A stretch of 64,000 nucleotides of DNA from Sinorhizobium mexicanum (GTDB lineage Bacteria > Pseudomonadota > Alphaproteobacteria > Rhizobiales > Rhizobiaceae). The notes below the pieces were generated by a model. It ran no database searches. It saw only the letters and a program-made list of their open reading frames with translations, and had not been told where the DNA came from. Position numbers and translations under genes: made by a program. This document shows positions 33,038 to 39,157 of the stretch, piece by piece (position 1 is the first letter of the stretch; every line of letters begins with the position of its first letter). The DNA is taken from positions 682,001 to 746,000 of the forward strand of contig NZ_CP041241.1 in NCBI RefSeq assembly GCF_013488225.1. The letters run 5' to 3'.

Positions 33038-33439
33038 ATGCGCCGATTGCAGTATCTGGTTTTGTTCGCTGTCGTCTGCTGTGGCCTTGCGGGCGGGGGA
33101 AGCTTCGCAGCCACCGACAGGTTTTACAGGGTCGTCGACGGCAAGGCCGATGCGCGGACCTATAACGGCTATCGGCGCTATAATGCCGGCTGCAACCATT
33201 GCCACGGCCCCGATGGAATAGGCTCGAGCTTCGCATCCTCGCTCGTCGCCCGACCGCTCGGTATCGAGGAGTTCAGGCGCGTCGTGCGCAACGGACGGAG
33301 CAGTGGCGGCACTTCGGTCATGAAGGGCTTCGGCGACGATCCCAATTTCGCTCCCTATATCGACGACATCTACGCCTATCTGCAGGCCCGCGCCGAAGGC
33401 GCGCTCGGTCGCGGGCGGCCTCAGAGATTAGAGCCGTAG
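33038..33439 (+). CDS. Periplasmic cytochrome c (XoxG/CycB-like)
   Basis: A 133-residue monohaem cytochrome with a signal peptide (MRRLQYLVLFAVVCCGLAGGGSFAA). The haem motif is CNHCH (Cys52, Cys55, His56), and Met95 in SVMKGFGDD is the likely axial ligand. DGKADARTYNGYRRYNAGCNHCHGPDGIGSSFASSLV resembles the small cytochromes that accept electrons from XoxF-type PQQ alcohol dehydrogenases. No such dehydrogenase lies in the window, so the partner is unknown. The GGAC upstream is a weak ribosome site. Confidence 0.78.
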   Translation: MRRLQYLVLFAVVCCGLAGGGSFAATDRFYRVVDGKADARTYNGYRRYNAGCNHCHGPDGIGSSFASSLVARPLGIEEFRRVVRNGRSSGGTSVMKGFGDDPNFAPYIDDIYAYLQARAEGALGRGRPQRLEP

Positions 33440-33697
33440 CACCGCTTTGAAGGCGGGCATCCGGTCGAACGGCTGGCGGCGATACAAAACACGTTTTCGC
33501 CCGCTGTTCGACTGTTGGCAACGTGGCTTCGCGCCACGCCCGACCGTGAACGGGAATCAAGACTTTTCCACGCAACGGCGCTCTGTAGGGTCAGCGTTCG
33601 AATGATTTCGGCGCGGGCGAAAATTCATTCCTTTAATGATGATAAAAAACATGGTTTTGATAGATTAATGCATCAACACGTGAGGAGAACACCCCAG
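33440..33697. promoter_or_regulatory. Upstream region of the organosulfur-type cluster
   Basis: About 260 bp without a gene. The last 100 bp are strikingly AT-rich (33630-33680, with TTTAATGATGATAAAAAA), unlike the flanking DNA. That suggests the main promoter of the following seven-gene set. No recognised operator was identified. Confidence 0.45.
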
Positions 33698-34282
33698 ATG
33701 CCCAAGACCCAATCCAACCCGATCACGCTTGGCACCAGCGCACCGGATTTCATTCTGCCGGACGCCGATGGCAACCTGTTCAAGCTTGACGACTTCAAGG
33801 GCAGCCCGGCGGTGCTTGTCGCCTTCATCTCCAATCGTTGTCCGTTCGTCGTGCTCATCCGCGAAGAGCTTGCGAAATTTGCCAAGGAATACGCCGCTAA
33901 AGGGCTCGCCGTCGTCGCGATCAATGCGAACGACGCCTCCGATCATCCGGAAGAAACGCTGGCTCGCATCGGAGAGGAGGTCAAGGCCTACGGGTATGGT
34001 TTCCCTTATCTGAAGGACGCTTCCCAATCCGTTGCCAAGGCCTACGGGGCCGCGTGCACGCCGGATTTCTTCCTCTATGACGGCGCGCGTCAGCTTGCCT
34101 ATCACGGCCAGTTCGACGACGCCCGCCCCGGCAATGGCAAGCCGGTCACGGGCGCGGATCTGCGTGCGGCGGTCGACTCGGTGCTGAAGGGAGAGTCCGT
34201 TTCGAACCAGGTGCCGTCGATCGGCTGCAACATCAAGTGGACGGCCGGCAACGAGCCGTCGTGGTTCTCGACGGCCGCGTAA
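33698..34282 (+). CDS. Thioredoxin-like / AhpC-TSA family protein
   Basis: A 194-residue cytosolic protein with a redoxin fold: APDFILPDADGNLFKLDDFKG, then FISNRCPFVVLIREELAKFAKEY. The family usually has C-N-H-C-P-F/Y; here the first Cys is Asn-Arg, leaving a single Cys48. Two more cysteines lie in YGAACTPDFFLYD and SIGCNIKW. A resolving Cys elsewhere, or a peroxidase-like one-Cys mechanism, is possible. A strong GAGGAG ribosome site precedes it. It heads a cluster with a flavoprotein, a ferredoxin and an ABC transporter. Confidence 0.82.
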   Translation: MPKTQSNPITLGTSAPDFILPDADGNLFKLDDFKGSPAVLVAFISNRCPFVVLIREELAKFAKEYAAKGLAVVAINANDASDHPEETLARIGEEVKAYGYGFPYLKDASQSVAKAYGAACTPDFFLYDGARQLAYHGQFDDARPGNGKPVTGADLRAAVDSVLKGESVSNQVPSIGCNIKWTAGNEPSWFSTAA

Positions 34283-34360
34283 CCAGAGCGGGTCACCATC
34301 GTGTTCGACCGGCCGGTGTCGGCGGCCGAACAGCACCGGCATCCTGGAGAAAGCTGCCTC

Positions 34361-35992
34361 ATGGCATCCCTGCACAAGACGCGGTCCGTGGAAGACGGCC
34401 AACCGATTGAAGCCGACGTTCTCGTCGTCGGCGGCGGCCCATCGGCTGCATGGGCAGCATTGTCGGCGGCTGAAGCCGGTGCGAAAGTCGTTCTCGCCGA
34501 CAAGGGGTATCATGGCACCAGCGGCGCCACGGCTCCCTCCAACACAGGAACGTGGTGCGTGCCTCCGGGGGAGGGGCGAGCAGCCTCCGTCGAGCAGCGC
34601 TGGAAGCGCACGGCAGGCCTGGCCGACAAGCGCTGGATGTTGCGCTGCGCCGATCGGGCCTATGAGAACCTGCTGAAGCTCGCCGAATGGGGCTATCCGT
34701 TCCCAAGCGAAGATGACGGTGCGCTCTACATCGCCAACCTGCGCGGTCCGGACTACATGCGCTTCATGCGCCGCCGCGTGCAGCAGGCCGGTGTCCAGAT
34801 CCTCGATCATCATCCGATCCTCGAACTGCTCGGTGACGACCGTCGTGTCGGCGGCGCGGCGGGACTGTCGCGGCGCAGCGGCGCGAATTTCCGCGTCGCT
34901 GCGGGCGCGGTGGTGCTGGCCACGGGCGGATGTGCTTTCTTCGAGCGCATCCTGGGTGGTACGGGGCTGACCGGCGATGGCTATCTCCTCGCGGCAGAGG
35001 CCGGCGCTGCCCTCTCGGGCATGGAATTCACGGGCAAATACACTCTTGCCCCGCACGGCTCGTCGCTGAACAAGGGACTGCCTTTCCGTTGGGCGACCTT
35101 CTATCGGGAAAACGGCGAGCCATTGCGGGATGCCCGTGGCGAGCCGGTGACCAACGGCATCGGCGGCGGCGAACGCTCGATCGCCGAGGCCCTGTTGTCC
35201 GGTCCCGTCTATGCGAGGCTCGATCTCGCCGAACCTGCCATGCAGGACTGGCTTCGGCGCGGCCAGCCGAACTGCTTTCTCCCCTATGACCGTCTTGGGA
35301 TCGATCCGTTCCGGGACCTATTCCGTGTGGACCTCAAATACGAGGGTACCGTGCGTGGTACCGGCGGCATCCGGCTTACCTCGTCCGAATGTGCGACCGG
35401 GGTGAGCGGCCTTTACGCAGCCGGTGATGCCGCCAGCCGCGAGAATGTCACGGGCGGTATTTCCGGCGGCGGTGCGATCAACGCATCCTGGGCCATCGCC
35501 AGCGGCTGGTGGGCCGGGCAGGGCGCGGCAGCCCATGCGCGCCGGTACCGCGACCACGACTCGTCGTGGCTTAGGCCCCTCGGCGCGACGGGGCTGAGGG
35601 GAACCGGCCGAGATGCCGGGATCGACCTTGGCGCCGCAGCCAAAGCAGTTCACGCGGAGATCGCACCGCTCGGCAAGAGCTACTGGCGCTCGGCCGCGGG
35701 CCTCGAGGCGAGCAGCGCCCGGCTCGATGCTCTCTGGAAGCGCTTGAACAACGCGTTGCCAGCGACCGGCGCCGAACGGCTGCGCGCCCGAGAGGTCGCC
35801 GCGGTGACGGCGAGTGCCCGCTGGACCGTTACTGCTGCCCTTGCGCGCACCGAAAGCCGCGGCGTGCACAGGCGCAGGGACTATCCGCAGGAACAAGACG
35901 CCCAGGCGGCGAGAATTATTGTCTCCGGTCTCGACAGGGTGACCGCGACACGCGAGCAGCCGGTGCTTGATGCCGCGCAGGAGGGATACTGA
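34361..35992 (+). CDS. FAD-dependent oxidoreductase (AprA / fumarate-reductase-type flavoprotein)
   Basis: A 543-residue flavoprotein with an N-terminal dinucleotide fold VLVVGGGPSAAWAALSAAEAG (20-40), a mid-protein VLATGGCAFF, and the C-terminal FAD motif GLYAAGDAASRENVTGGISGGGAINASWAIASG. The helical C-terminus continues to about 540. The next gene, 2 nt downstream, is a two-cluster ferredoxin, as in adenylylsulfate reductase AprA-AprB. With a sulfonate-type transporter following, oxidation or reduction of an organosulfur compound is inferred. The substrate is unknown. Confidence 0.82.
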   Translation: MASLHKTRSVEDGQPIEADVLVVGGGPSAAWAALSAAEAGAKVVLADKGYHGTSGATAPSNTGTWCVPPGEGRAASVEQRWKRTAGLADKRWMLRCADRAYENLLKLAEWGYPFPSEDDGALYIANLRGPDYMRFMRRRVQQAGVQILDHHPILELLGDDRRVGGAAGLSRRSGANFRVAAGAVVLATGGCAFFERILGGTGLTGDGYLLAAEAGAALSGMEFTGKYTLAPHGSSLNKGLPFRWATFYRENGEPLRDARGEPVTNGIGGGERSIAEALLSGPVYARLDLAEPAMQDWLRRGQPNCFLPYDRLGIDPFRDLFRVDLKYEGTVRGTGGIRLTSSECATGVSGLYAAGDAASRENVTGGISGGGAINASWAIASGWWAGQGAAAHARRYRDHDSSWLRPLGATGLRGTGRDAGIDLGAAAKAVHAEIAPLGKSYWRSAAGLEASSARLDALWKRLNNALPATGAERLRAREVAAVTASARWTVTAALARTESRGVHRRRDYPQEQDAQAARIIVSGLDRVTATREQPVLDAAQEGY

Positions 35993-35994
35993 TC

Positions 35995-36324
35995 ATGATC
36001 GAGGTGATCTCCGCCGATCGCTGCATTCGCTGCGACATCTGCGAGCGAGTCTGTCCGGCATTCGTCTTCGATCGTGACGAGACGGGCCTGCCCGCCATCG
36101 CCCGGCAGGATGACTGTCAGACCTGTTTCCTCTGCGAGATCTATTGCCCGACCGATGCGCTTTACGTTGCCGAGCAGGCCGACGGGCCGACCGGTATTGG
36201 CGAAGCGGAGGTCGCGGCTTTGGGCCTGTTCGGCAGCTACTCGCGCTCACTTGGTTGGAGACGTGGTCAGGCAGGCGGCACCGACCGGGACCCCACACAC
36301 CACATCCGCGTCGCGCAGGTCTAA
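35995..36324 (+). CDS. 2x[4Fe-4S] ferredoxin (AprB-like)
   Basis: A 109-residue electron carrier with two Cx2Cx2Cx3C motifs: Cys10-13-16-20 (CIRCDICERVCP) and Cys41-44-47-51 (CQTCFLCEIYCP). Both are complete, so two [4Fe-4S] clusters are expected. An AGGAGGG inside the end of the flavoprotein gene drives its translation. Tight linkage suggests it is the electron-transfer subunit of that flavoprotein. The C-terminal 45 residues carry no motif. Confidence 0.88.
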   Translation: MIEVISADRCIRCDICERVCPAFVFDRDETGLPAIARQDDCQTCFLCEIYCPTDALYVAEQADGPTGIGEAEVAALGLFGSYSRSLGWRRGQAGGTDRDPTHHIRVAQV

Positions 36325-36344
36325 GGCCGAGGAGGGCCCATCCC

Positions 36345-37181
36345 ATGGAACGTATCGTTGTCAATTCCGTGCGCAAGACGTTCGCGCTGAAACCGGGACA
36401 GACCGTCACCGTGGACGGCAGGGTCAGCAACCGGATCCCGGTCCTGGACGGCATCGACCTCACGATCCGCAAGGGTGAGTTCATTACCCTCGTCGGGCCG
36501 TCGGGGAGCGGCAAATCCGTGCTCCTCGACATCATCGCCGGGCTGACCGAAGCCTCGTCCGGCGTCGCGTCGATCGATGGCGCCGAAGTGCGAAAGCCGC
36601 ATTCCCAGACGGCCTACGTCTTCCAGCAATATGCGCTCTTTCCCTGGCGAACGGCGCTGGAGAATGTCGAATATGCGTTGGAGGTGCGCGGCGCGCCGGC
36701 GGCCGTGCGGCGGGAGAAGGCGCTTTATTTCCTCAACCTGTTCGGGCTCAAGGGTTTCGAGGACCGCTTTCCTTCGCAGCTCTCCGGCGGCATGCAGCAG
36801 CGCGTAGCCATCGCGCGGGCGCTGTCGACCGAACCGCAGGTCCTGCTGATGGACGAGCCCTTCGCTGCGCTCGACGCTCAAACGCGGGACATCCTGCAGA
36901 GCGAACTCCTGCGCATTTGGGAGCAGATCAAGACCACTGTGGTCTTCGTAACGCACTCTATCGACGAGGCGATCTTTCTCGCCGACCGGGTCGTGGTGAT
37001 GACCGCGCGGCCCGCCAAGGTAAAGGAGATCATCGACGTCGACCTGCCGCGTCCGCGCGAGATCGATATCCGCAACACCGATGCCTTCAACGCCTATCGC
37101 GCCTGGGTGTGGAACAGCCTTCGCGACGAGGTCAGCAAGGCTCAGCGCGACTGGGCGCTGGCTTCGGCCTACGCCAATTAA
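36345..37181 (+). CDS. Sulfonate/taurine/nitrate-type ABC transporter ATP-binding protein
   Basis: A 278-residue ATPase of the SsuB/TauB/NrtD group: Walker A GPSGSGKS (51-58), Q-loop VFQQYALFPWRTALENV, signature LSGGMQQR, Walker B VLLMDEPFAALD, and H-loop VTHSIDEAIFLADRVVVMTARP. The DEAIFLADRV...ARP ending is typical of this group. ATG 36345 is preceded by GGAGG. Permease and binding-protein genes follow. Confidence 0.92.
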   Translation: MERIVVNSVRKTFALKPGQTVTVDGRVSNRIPVLDGIDLTIRKGEFITLVGPSGSGKSVLLDIIAGLTEASSGVASIDGAEVRKPHSQTAYVFQQYALFPWRTALENVEYALEVRGAPAAVRREKALYFLNLFGLKGFEDRFPSQLSGGMQQRVAIARALSTEPQVLLMDEPFAALDAQTRDILQSELLRIWEQIKTTVVFVTHSIDEAIFLADRVVVMTARPAKVKEIIDVDLPRPREIDIRNTDAFNAYRAWVWNSLRDEVSKAQRDWALASAYAN

Positions 37182-37193
37182 AGGGAGGGCCGC

Positions 37194-38060
37194 ATGAGCC
37201 TGGTCACCGACAGAACACCTTCCGTCCGCTCGCCGCTTGCCTTCTGGCGTCGGCATTCGTCCCTTTTTAATGGCTCCAACGCGGTTGGCGGGGCGCTCAC
37301 GACCTTCTCCCTCGGCCTTCCGGCGCTGATCGCCTTCGCGCTGCTCTGGGAGATTGCGCCGCGCGCCGGCTGGATCAACGCGCTGTTCTTTCCGCCGCTC
37401 AGCCAGGTACTCGCCTCTCTTTGGGACATGGCCGAGAGCGGACAGCTTGCCGCCCATATCGGCATCAGCCTGCAGCGCGCCGCGATCGGGCTCGTTCTCG
37501 CGGTGGTTACCGCGGTTCCGCTCGGCTTTCTCATGGGGAGATACACGGTTTTCGAAAAGGTCAGCGATTTTCTCGTCCAGACTCTCAGGAATACGTCGCA
37601 GTTTGCGCTGCTACCCGTTTTCATCCTCGTCCTCGGCATTGGCGAGGCTTCCAAGATCGCGATTACCTTTTACGCGGCGGTTTTCTTTCTCCTCATCAAC
37701 ACGATCGTTGGAGTGAAGTCGGTCGATCCGCTGCTCGTGAAGGCTGCCCGCTCGATGGGAACCTCCGACTGGGACCTCTTCAAGAAGGTCATCTTCCCTT
37801 CGGCGATCCCTTCGATCGTGGCCGGGGCGCGGCTCGGCGTTAAGACCTCGCTCTTTTCGGTCATCGCCGCCGAAATGCTCGCCGCCCAATCCGGCATCGG
37901 TTACCTGATCCAGCATTCCTCGCTGATGCTTGAGACCGACCGCATGTACGCAGGCATCCTGACGCTGACGATCATCGGTCTCCTGCTCAACTACGGCCTC
38001 GTCGCCGCAGAACGGCGCGCCACGCGCTGGCGCGGCACGGGCGAAGGCGGACCGAACTGA
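37194..38060 (+). CDS. Sulfonate/taurine-type ABC transporter permease
   Basis: A 288-residue SsuC-like inner-membrane protein with about six TM helices. Its cytoplasmic loop is VKAARSMGTSDWDLFKKVIFPSAIPSIVAGARLGVKTSLFSVIAAEML, the EAA motif of this permease group. It starts 12 nt after the ATPase stop behind AAAGGGAGG. It acts with the adjacent ATPase and SsuA-like binding protein. Confidence 0.92.
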   Translation: MSLVTDRTPSVRSPLAFWRRHSSLFNGSNAVGGALTTFSLGLPALIAFALLWEIAPRAGWINALFFPPLSQVLASLWDMAESGQLAAHIGISLQRAAIGLVLAVVTAVPLGFLMGRYTVFEKVSDFLVQTLRNTSQFALLPVFILVLGIGEASKIAITFYAAVFFLLINTIVGVKSVDPLLVKAARSMGTSDWDLFKKVIFPSAIPSIVAGARLGVKTSLFSVIAAEMLAAQSGIGYLIQHSSLMLETDRMYAGILTLTIIGLLLNYGLVAAERRATRWRGTGEGGPN

Positions 38061-38122
38061 GCCAGACGCACGAAGCCGCATTTCCAACGCTAACCCGATT
38101 GCACCCGAAAAGGACCCGCCCC

Positions 38123-39157
38123 ATGGCACGCACCGTTCGCAGTTCCTTGCGCCGCACCTTCCTGAAGCTTGCCCTTGCGCTATCCGTCGCCCCGCTCGTG
38201 GGATACGCGCCCGCTTTTGCGGATAGCGCCAAGCCCGACACCATTCGCATCGGTTCGACCGCGCCGGGACATCTGAAGTTCATTCTCTTCCGCAGCAAGA
38301 AGATCCTCGAGGAAGAATTCGCCAAGGACGGCATCAAGGTCGAACTGACGACCTTCGACGGCGGCTCGGCCGCGTCGGTCGCGCTCGGGTCCGGCGCGCT
38401 CGACTTCACCTATATCGGCAACAATCCGTCGTTGCGCCTCGCAGCCACGGGCGCCGATGTCAAGCTGATCGGCCTCTCGAGCTGGGTCAGGTCGAACGAG
38501 ACGCAGATCGTCGTACGTCCAGACTCGCCGATCCAGAAGCTTGAAGACCTCAAAGGCAAGAAGGTTGCCTATCTCTCGGGCACAGTCCGCCACTCGACCT
38601 TCGCCAAGGCGCTGAAATCGGTCAACCTCGGCATCGCCGACGTCGAGAGCCTGAACCTTGGTATAGAGAACTCGGGTCCAGCACTCGCGAGGGGCGATGT
38701 CGACGCGATCGTCGAAAGCAATGGTCCGGTCCAGAAGCTCGTCGACGCCGGGCAGGCGCGGCTGATTTACGATGCCGGCGTTTCCGGCAACCCCGAATGG
38801 GCGGTGCCGCATCTCCTCAGCGTCAATGGCGAATTCGCCCGGAAATATCCCGAGATCGTGGCGCGTGTGCTTGCCGTCGACCTCGCCCTGTCGCGCTGGG
38901 TCGATGCAAATCCGGAGGAAACCATCAATATCTTCGTCAAGGAGACCGGCAACAGCGAGGCGGCTGTCCGGTCGACCTATGCGAATGGCCAATTCTGGCA
39001 AAACCCGGAAATCACCGATGAAGCCGTCCGGGCGCTCCAGGGCGAGGAAGCCTTCATGGCGGAGGCCGGCCTTCTCAAGGGCAAGGTCGACTACGACAGC
39101 TGGGTCGACCGGTCTTACTACAACGCAGCCGTGAAGAAGGTTGCGGCAAGCAACTGA
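38123..39157 (+). CDS. Periplasmic substrate-binding protein, aliphatic sulfonate type
   Basis: A 344-residue SsuA-like protein with an N-terminal export signal (RSSLRRTFLKLALALSVAPLVGYAPAFA; the RRTFLK run resembles a Tat motif). The mature domain shows DTIRIGSTAPGHLKFILFRSKKILEEEF, LTTFDGGSAASVALGSGALDFTYIGNNPSLRLAA and LEDLKGKKVAYLSGT, characteristic of sulfonate/taurine/nitrate binders. ATG 38123 is chosen from the signal. A terminator-like hairpin follows. Confidence 0.9.
   Translation: MARTVRSSLRRTFLKLALALSVAPLVGYAPAFADSAKPDTIRIGSTAPGHLKFILFRSKKILEEEFAKDGIKVELTTFDGGSAASVALGSGALDFTYIGNNPSLRLAATGADVKLIGLSSWVRSNETQIVVRPDSPIQKLEDLKGKKVAYLSGTVRHSTFAKALKSVNLGIADVESLNLGIENSGPALARGDVDAIVESNGPVQKLVDAGQARLIYDAGVSGNPEWAVPHLLSVNGEFARKYPEIVARVLAVDLALSRWVDANPEETINIFVKETGNSEAAVRSTYANGQFWQNPEITDEAVRALQGEEAFMAEAGLLKGKVDYDSWVDRSYYNAAVKKVAASN

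Follow-up and report, generated by a model that had tools for sequence, protein, structure and literature searches.

A stretch of 64,000 nucleotides from Sinorhizobium mexicanum (NZ_CP041241.1, positions 682,001 to 746,000), called the window here, contains six plus-strand genes that run in one direction, trx-asfA-asfB-ssuB-ssuC-ssuA. The window is part of a 1.93 Mb contig, and the genome comprises 7.14 Mb in four contigs. The locus raises the question of what a flavoprotein and a ferredoxin do in the operon of a sulfonate-type ATP-binding cassette (ABC) importer. A first-pass annotation of the same DNA had proposed a redox route for an imported organosulfur compound, using an iron-sulfur flavoenzyme instead of an oxygenase. 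Judged by sequence comparison, the flavoprotein and the ferredoxin are an AsfA/AsfB pair, which is a known kind, and the six-gene operon probably imports an organic sulfonate. We give about an even chance to the fuller reading, that the operon is an organic-sulfonate sulfur-scavenging cassette in which AsfA is catalytic, AsfB is the electron donor and sulfite is released.

Identification of the AsfA/AsfB pair

The flavoprotein had been described as AprA-type, with a profile search against AprA, fumarate reductase and other families as the proposed check. In that search, for which the best 25 of 41 families were listed, every specific model listed scored below its cut-off. The AprA model NF005331 gave 54 bits against a cut-off of 557, and TIGR02061 (AprA) was not among the 25; TfrA gave 102.9 (cut-off 718) and NadB 76.4 (cut-off 452.75). 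With NF005331 so far under its cut-off the AprA identity was dropped, as were fumarate reductase, succinate dehydrogenase and L-aspartate oxidase, whose listed models were also far under theirs. The label 'AprA-type' was thus too specific, and the protein groups with AsfA instead. The AprA/AprB assignment of the pair likewise gives way to AsfA/AsfB, which was already in print by 1999 according to a review (PMC4267179).

Chromosome 2 of Cupriavidus metallidurans CH34, where the genome paper of this strain locates asfRAB, has a single AsfA-like place. It is 49% identical to the window protein, and the ferredoxin after it shares 52% identity with the window AsfB over 91 residues. The CH34 pair was named through this sole matching place on the replicon, whose record gives no gene table there, and no LysR gene was present among the five open reading frames scanned beside it. 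The window AsfB has exactly eight cysteines and two CxxCxxCxxxCP motifs. The window AsfA also matched 59 plasmid records, in 57 cases across 80% or more of its length, and 16 of the 59 were taken for analysis.

In a maximum-likelihood tree of 74 rows, 67 AsfA rows, including that of CH34 (L014), stood apart from seven distant rows with support of 100/100 and formed their own group on a long branch. The partial L035 entered neither the tree nor the count of conservation over the 67 rows; L051, L053 and L055 were kept as distant rows. The window AsfA fell within a 12-row clade (support 100/94), whose hosts are Shinella, Ensifer adhaerens, S. meliloti, Sinorhizobium sp., Brucella pituitosa, Aureimonas and five further genomes. 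The position of the root is uncertain, as long branches come together among the distant rows. Five distant proteins were scanned: L015_2137, which has two near-copies among the seven rows outside the AsfA group, passed a fumarate reductase/succinate dehydrogenase model (1072.9 bits), and none passed AprA or NadB. The tree contains no AprA-passing row, and the separation of AsfA from AprA that it shows is therefore indirect.

A second flavoprotein gene was also seen beside AsfAB loci, at L088:10324-12060, L090:5484-7220 and L015:2137-3870, the model passed by the last being PRK08275. Its neighbours are ABC parts and a HEAT-repeat protein in both L088 and L015, together with a GBBH-like N-terminal domain protein in L088. 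These two places possibly represent another flavoprotein-importer set.

The invariant residues of AsfA include R332, R360, W377, R477 and R487, each present in 67/67 AsfA rows, and the first three of these are not common to the seven distant rows. The residue that follows the invariant Y227 is T, A, G or S in nine aligned AsfA rows; whereas FrdA has His there. The FrdA stretch GANRLGSNS aligns with an AsfA stretch that lacks its Arg, in an alignment that is uncertain at such distance. This His and this Arg we take to be the dicarboxylate-binding residues of FrdA near the flavin adenine dinucleotide (FAD), and AsfA seems to be without them.

The best PDB profile match of AsfA was the alpha subunit of 3'-phosphoadenosine 5'-phosphosulfate (PAPS) reductase, 8a8o (112.5 bits); fumarate reductase gave 110.7 and AprA 80.9. 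An AlphaFold model of AsfA reached pLDDT 84.3 and pTM 0.89. This PAPS reductase, from Methanothermococcus thermolithotrophicus, consists of an FAD subunit and a beta subunit in which eight cysteines carry two [4Fe-4S] clusters. The best match and the shared two-subunit layout would suit a dissimilatory or assimilatory adenosine 5'-phosphosulfate (APS)/PAPS reductase of the AprAB-like type; however, such an identity is very improbable. The AprA score, the separate long-branched AsfA group (indirectly, as noted) and the presence of R332, R360 and W377 in all AsfA rows but not in the distant ones all speak against it, and no ATP sulfurylase was found among the neighbouring proteins scanned.

Conservation of the cassette

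The genes for AsfA, AsfB, ATPase, permease and binding protein were found by tblastn in the same order and on one strand in 12/12 clade loci, the window included. This arrangement, repeated in the window and 11 other clade loci, exceeds chance; some of the loci were chosen for their likeness to the window, and the 12 are not a random sample. The first-pass annotation had named clustering with a characterised enzyme of unrelated substrate, or a lack of co-conservation, as results that would speak against its proposal. Neither result was obtained: the flavoprotein groups with AsfA, and the neighbourhood survey found the importer co-conserved with it in 11/11 other clade loci.

The plasmid records gave a similar picture. 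Eight records contain a binding protein at 80-90% identity, and they are the very eight in which AsfA is closest. Among the remaining binding-protein matches listed, identity stayed below 35%, and the tally gives one further record at 60-80%, outside the best 50 listed.

The wider survey covered 73 AsfA genes in 67 sources, with the second AsfA of L125 counted as outside the clade. An adjacent asfB was found for at least 65 of the genes; at least 58 have two or more of the three ABC parts within 5 kb, and at least 18 have a luciferase-type (LLM) or TauD gene within this distance. These counts are lower bounds, because one flank is shorter than 5 kb for 12 of the 73 genes, and ABC parts unlike the 37 seed proteins escape detection. 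Of 54 loci found, 29 (L022-L050) were used for neighbourhoods; the other 25 (L051-L075) were excluded for having long matches of at most 28% identity or short matches only. L049 (29%) and the copies at 26-27% in L015, L088 and L090 were not counted as AsfA. One of the surveyed places is a Paenibacillus plasmid cluster (L018:1378-8934) with two asfAB pairs and one ABC set that has two permeases.

A close AsfA was present in 0/32 other genomes of the same genus, three of which have an AsfA of another kind at 48-53% identity. The distribution of the cassette is sporadic.

The importer and its likely substrate

The SsuABC-like uptake system described earlier is upheld by its binding protein, since the ssuA product passes the SsuA-family model TIGR01728 (311.5 bits against a cut-off of 163.5). 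Its N terminus, judged by eye, resembles a signal peptide. The nearest solved chains are 3uif and 2x26 (both SsuA), 3e4r (labelled nitrate transport protein) and 6ssy (taurine-binding). Because the SsuA-family score is high and the two best solved relatives are SsuA, the imported substrate would be a sulfonate.

The imported anion might instead be a sulfate ester, a nitrate-like anion or a compound of the thiamine-pyrimidine type, with an unrelated reaction of the flavoenzyme. Neither the ATPase nor the permease passed a specific transporter model among those listed (the best 25 for the ATPase). Moreover, binding proteins of the NMT1 type are broad, the third-best solved relative is the one labelled for nitrate, and other AsfA clades have ABC sets beside them whose binding proteins are different. 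We consider such a substrate quite unlikely, however, in view of the wide margin over the SsuA cut-off and the two SsuA relatives. SsuD pieces also lie beside the same importer in L095 (L095:3840-4225, directly downstream of the binding-protein gene), and asfA is genetically tied to sulfonate use: the asfA transposon mutant of Pseudomonas putida S-313 lost the use of aromatic sulfonates and kept that of aliphatic ones (PMC4267179). The best or near-best NCBIfam transporter names, SaoA, SaoP and SaoX, were rejected as below cut-off; SAO denotes a selenocysteine-assisted organometallic system (PMC13188914).

Organization of the operon

The features of the locus are as follows.

33640..33697, plus strand: A/T-rich leader, which precedes the first gene and holds a weak copy of the CTAYWAAATCTATG element
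33698..34282, plus strand: thioredoxin-like protein (AhpC/TSA, peroxiredoxin-like), 194 amino acids; Pfam AhpC-TSA 72.5 bits, cut-off 26
34361..35992, plus strand: AsfA, an FAD flavoprotein of 543 amino acids from the fumarate reductase/APS reductase superfamily; FAD_binding_2 71.1 bits, cut-off 20.4
35995..36324, plus strand: AsfB, a two-[4Fe-4S] ferredoxin of 109 amino acids with eight cysteines
36345..37181, plus strand: SsuB-like ABC importer ATPase, with Walker A, LSGGM and DEP motifs
37194..38060, plus strand: SsuC-like ABC importer permease, from the model scan
38123..39157, plus strand: SsuA-family periplasmic binding protein, passing TIGR01728
39167..40648, plus strand: major facilitator superfamily transporter, an optional neighbour with a homologue beside the cassette in 8/12 clade loci (divergent in L125)

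All six genes of the first-pass annotation lie on the plus strand where it had placed them. The motifs it reported were likewise recovered, namely the eight ferredoxin cysteines, the FAD motifs GGGPSA and GLYAAGD, and the Walker A, LSGGM and DEP motifs of the ATPase. Two starts were revised: asfA probably begins at ATG 34361 rather than 34301, from homology and a GGAGAAA site, and ssuA probably at ATG 38123, from homology. The intergenic gaps then become 78, 2, 20, 12 and 62 nt, and the reported spacing of 2-20 nt holds for the three middle gaps but not for the first and the last.

No sigma-70-like site was found at the cassette, and terminator-like sites showed no excess (3 against a shuffle mean of 4.7); promoter and terminator calls were dropped for these reasons. 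The GC content of the cassette departs little from that of its surroundings. Upstream, at 33038-33439, lies a small c-type cytochrome related to a 'methanol metabolism-related' family, below the cut-off of that model (103.4 against 161.75).

The thioredoxin-like protein and the upstream element

The first gene encodes a protein with the conserved cysteine motifs SNRCP, AACTPD and IGCNIKW, which is 83% identical to PDB 3u5r, a structure listed as uncharacterised; the corresponding protein in the cassette of S. meliloti Ak57 (L101) is 99.5% identical to it. The three cysteines are common to the window protein, 3u5r and nine other intact clade copies aligned. The gene stands ahead of asfA in 11/12 clade loci. 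It was not found in L095, and in the Brucella pituitosa locus (L022:7589-7909) it has decayed, so that none of the three cysteine motifs is left and the frame is shortened; the five other cassette genes of that locus match over their length. A thioredoxin-like match within 1.5 kb of AsfA was found for 1/61 genes outside the clade; this is a Micromonospora locus (L047:9676-10479), where the gene is 49% identical to that of the window. Paralogs at 37-41% identity exist in 13/19 genomes of the same genus, and 6/19 gave no match at E 1e-30; S. mexicanum itself has one at 41%. The protein would serve as an auxiliary redox partner.

Four close loci carry an exact CTATAAAATCTATG or CTACTAAATCTATG element 58-59 bp ahead of the thioredoxin-like start, and two more have copies with 1-2 mismatches. 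The copy in the window, compared with CTAYWAAATCTATG, has 3 mismatches and lies on the minus strand at 33650-33663, 48 bp ahead of the gene. With up to two mismatches allowed, the element was matched 11 times in 1.06 Mb of loci, and seven of these matches lie at the position ahead of this gene; the motif was derived from those same loci, and the counts are descriptive, not an independent test. The element may be an operator.

Oxygenases and the proposed reaction

The survey of oxygenases covered SsuD, TauD and luciferase-type proteins; Rieske, P450 and other oxygenases lay outside it. The absence of SsuD and TauD claimed for the operon holds genome-wide in S. mexicanum: no protein passed the SsuD cut-off (best 82.8 bits against 518.2; the same protein gave 87.0 as a whole), and there was no match to PF02668 for TauD at E 0.001. 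The operon has no SsuE. Among eight clade genomes tested, four (G000, G150, G378 and G454) have no SsuD over the cut-off. G378 has neither an SsuD match at E 0.001 nor a TauD match, and its PF00296 matches are three only: one Atu2307-type, one MsnO8-type and one inside a non-ribosomal peptide synthetase frame. G454 likewise gave no match for TauD; its luciferase-type matches number 14. G150 has only C-terminal SsuD pieces (profile positions 246-346, one piece with a stop), and this remnant, seen in G150/L095, hints at an earlier pairing of the importer with SsuD. Because clade genomes keep asfAB and the importer without an SsuD over the cut-off, SsuD is no obligate partner of asfAB. The idea that AsfAB is always accompanied by SsuD is refuted by 10/23 AsfA-family genomes without SsuD over the cut-off.

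In the scavenging reading, SsuA would bind the sulfonate outside the inner membrane and SsuBC would carry it in. AsfA, as the FAD subunit, would hold the substrate beside the flavin; AsfB would hand it electrons via two [4Fe-4S] clusters; and the two together would free sulfite for cysteine synthesis, with the thioredoxin-like protein assisting. Where characterised enzymes of this fold come with an iron-sulfur subunit, catalysis normally lies with the flavoprotein, and the fold is not known to include a separate NAD(P)H domain. Because its layout is that of PAPS/APS reductase and fumarate reductase, it seems to lack the dicarboxylate His and Arg and it has invariant residues of its own, AsfA itself presumably handles the substrate, as the catalytic subunit rather than an electron donor. 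Sulfite would then be the product.

Several observations weigh against this reading. The review describes AsfAB as electron transfer for oxygenation, complementing ssu (PMC4267179). S. mexicanum encodes ten LLM proteins outside the operon. SsuD passes its cut-off in the other four clade genomes tested (G181, G455, G535 and G712) and in 13/23 AsfA-family genomes. Only 5/20 AsfA-free genomes of the same genus have it, and a genome without it is therefore nothing unusual here. LLM or TauD genes lie within 5 kb of 16/61 AsfA genes outside the clade against 2/12 inside, the latter being the SsuD remnant of L095 and a 33% LLM in L125. The best PDB matches of AsfB are polyferredoxins, with the PAPS reductase beta subunit eighth (44.6 bits). 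Between 29250 and 44925, none of the proteins scanned matched a LysR model. Finally, the thioredoxin-like gene is dispensable, since it is decayed in L022 and was not found in L095.

In a rival reading AsfAB is an electron chain only, feeding a monooxygenase encoded elsewhere, for example an LLM, that splits the sulfonate with oxygen. This possibility has to be taken seriously, although we do not regard it as probable. It matches the description of asf and ssu in P. putida (PMC4267179) and the CH34 genome paper. LLM genes also stand near asfAB in several other clades (e.g. L105, L109, L108 and L019). The same S. mexicanum genome moreover has a separate cluster (C4:505000-520000, L145) with an FMN reductase-like gene, two LLM proteins and an importer of its own (binding protein, ATPase and permease), which is a candidate oxygenase-based system. 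Of the matches from anaerobe-type lineages, that of Archaeoglobi (L051, 24%) falls outside the AsfA family in the tree, and that of Syntrophobacteraceae (L072, 23%) is not in the tree. The lineages of the named AsfA hosts are mostly aerobic, which also counts for an oxygenase. On the other side, 0/10 LLM proteins pass SsuD or SfnG; three pass NtaA/DmoA, one Atu2307 and one MsnO8, and the remaining five fall short of every model listed at E 1e-20. G378 has just the three PF00296 matches given above, and flavoprotein/ferredoxin pairs of this fold are normally catalytic, as in the PAPS reductase paper. In L105 and L109 the run is LLM, binding protein, permease, ATPase, asfA and asfB, with copper-type genes upstream (CopD or CopC, YcnI/DUF1775).

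For the scavenging reading, the proposed redox route for an imported organosulfur compound is supported as far as sulfonate scavenging goes, by the SsuA family, the AsfA grouping and the co-conservation. The words 'instead of an oxygenase' fare less evenly: the absence of SsuD and TauD stands, and the LLM proteins, the SsuD of half of the clade genomes tested and the oxygenation role given in the review tell against them. A stronger form, in which AsfAB itself is an oxygen-independent sulfonate desulfonase that replaced SsuD in a once SsuD-linked importer operon, appears rather unlikely. AsfB would reduce the FAD of AsfA, the reduced N5 would attack the sulfonate sulfur, and the organic part would leave before sulfite. 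An N5 attack on sulfur has been proposed for APS reductase. P. putida makes phenols from arylsulfonates and needs oxygen to do so, which argues against a desulfonase, as do the mostly aerobic hosts. If the desulfonase were real, many asf loci would represent a second, reductive route for sulfur from sulfonates.

Comparison with known systems

The asfRABC genes are required beyond ssu for aromatic desulfonation (PMC4267179), and asfA serves as a marker gene of soil sulfonate turnover (PMC4267179, PMC9694294). The terms of asf also occur in PMC10441942, PMC5610682 and PMC6604995. A paper on 48 Sinorhizobium strains gives, in its accessible text, five organosulfur clusters with asf not among them. 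No description of this cassette or of a stand-alone AsfAB activity was found in the accessible text of the open literature (PMC4267179, PMC9694294, PMC2864759, PMC4070957, PMC4053727 and PMC13352529, with the original asf papers outside this set), where the only role given to AsfAB is that of a presumed electron chain for oxygenation. The present version stands out by a thioredoxin-like gene of its own, a complete importer, and its occurrence in genomes without the usual sulfonate-splitting oxygenases SsuD and TauD. Clade genomes that lack both but keep an intact asfAB-importer cassette offer a clean setting to ask whether AsfAB breaks the carbon-sulfur bond, and the cassette supplies a context for the orphan structure 3u5r.

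Compared with SsuEADCB and TauABCD, the window shares the importer type and the binding-protein family; however, it has no SsuE in the operon, and nothing in its genome reaches the SsuD cut-off or matches TauD. With PAPS reductase 8a8o and AprAB it shares a fumarate reductase-family FAD subunit and an eight-cysteine two-[4Fe-4S] subunit; whereas it fails the AprA model, has the AsfA-specific R332, R360 and W377, and shows no sulfate-activation gene among the neighbours scanned.

The closest known system is asfRABC of P. putida S-313 and C. metallidurans CH34, compared through sequences for CH34 and by description only for S-313. Both have homologous, adjacent asfA and asfB (49% and 52% identical to CH34) with ABC genes nearby. 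The window differs in its AsfA subclade, its thioredoxin-like first gene and its complete importer within the operon, and, as no LysR gene turned up among the neighbouring proteins scanned, it is classed as an AsfAB pair rather than as asfRABC. Its genome has no SsuD over the cut-off; whereas asf complements ssu in the review (PMC4267179). The locus is an AsfAB-type sulfonate operon of a known kind, in a distinct and well-conserved arrangement.

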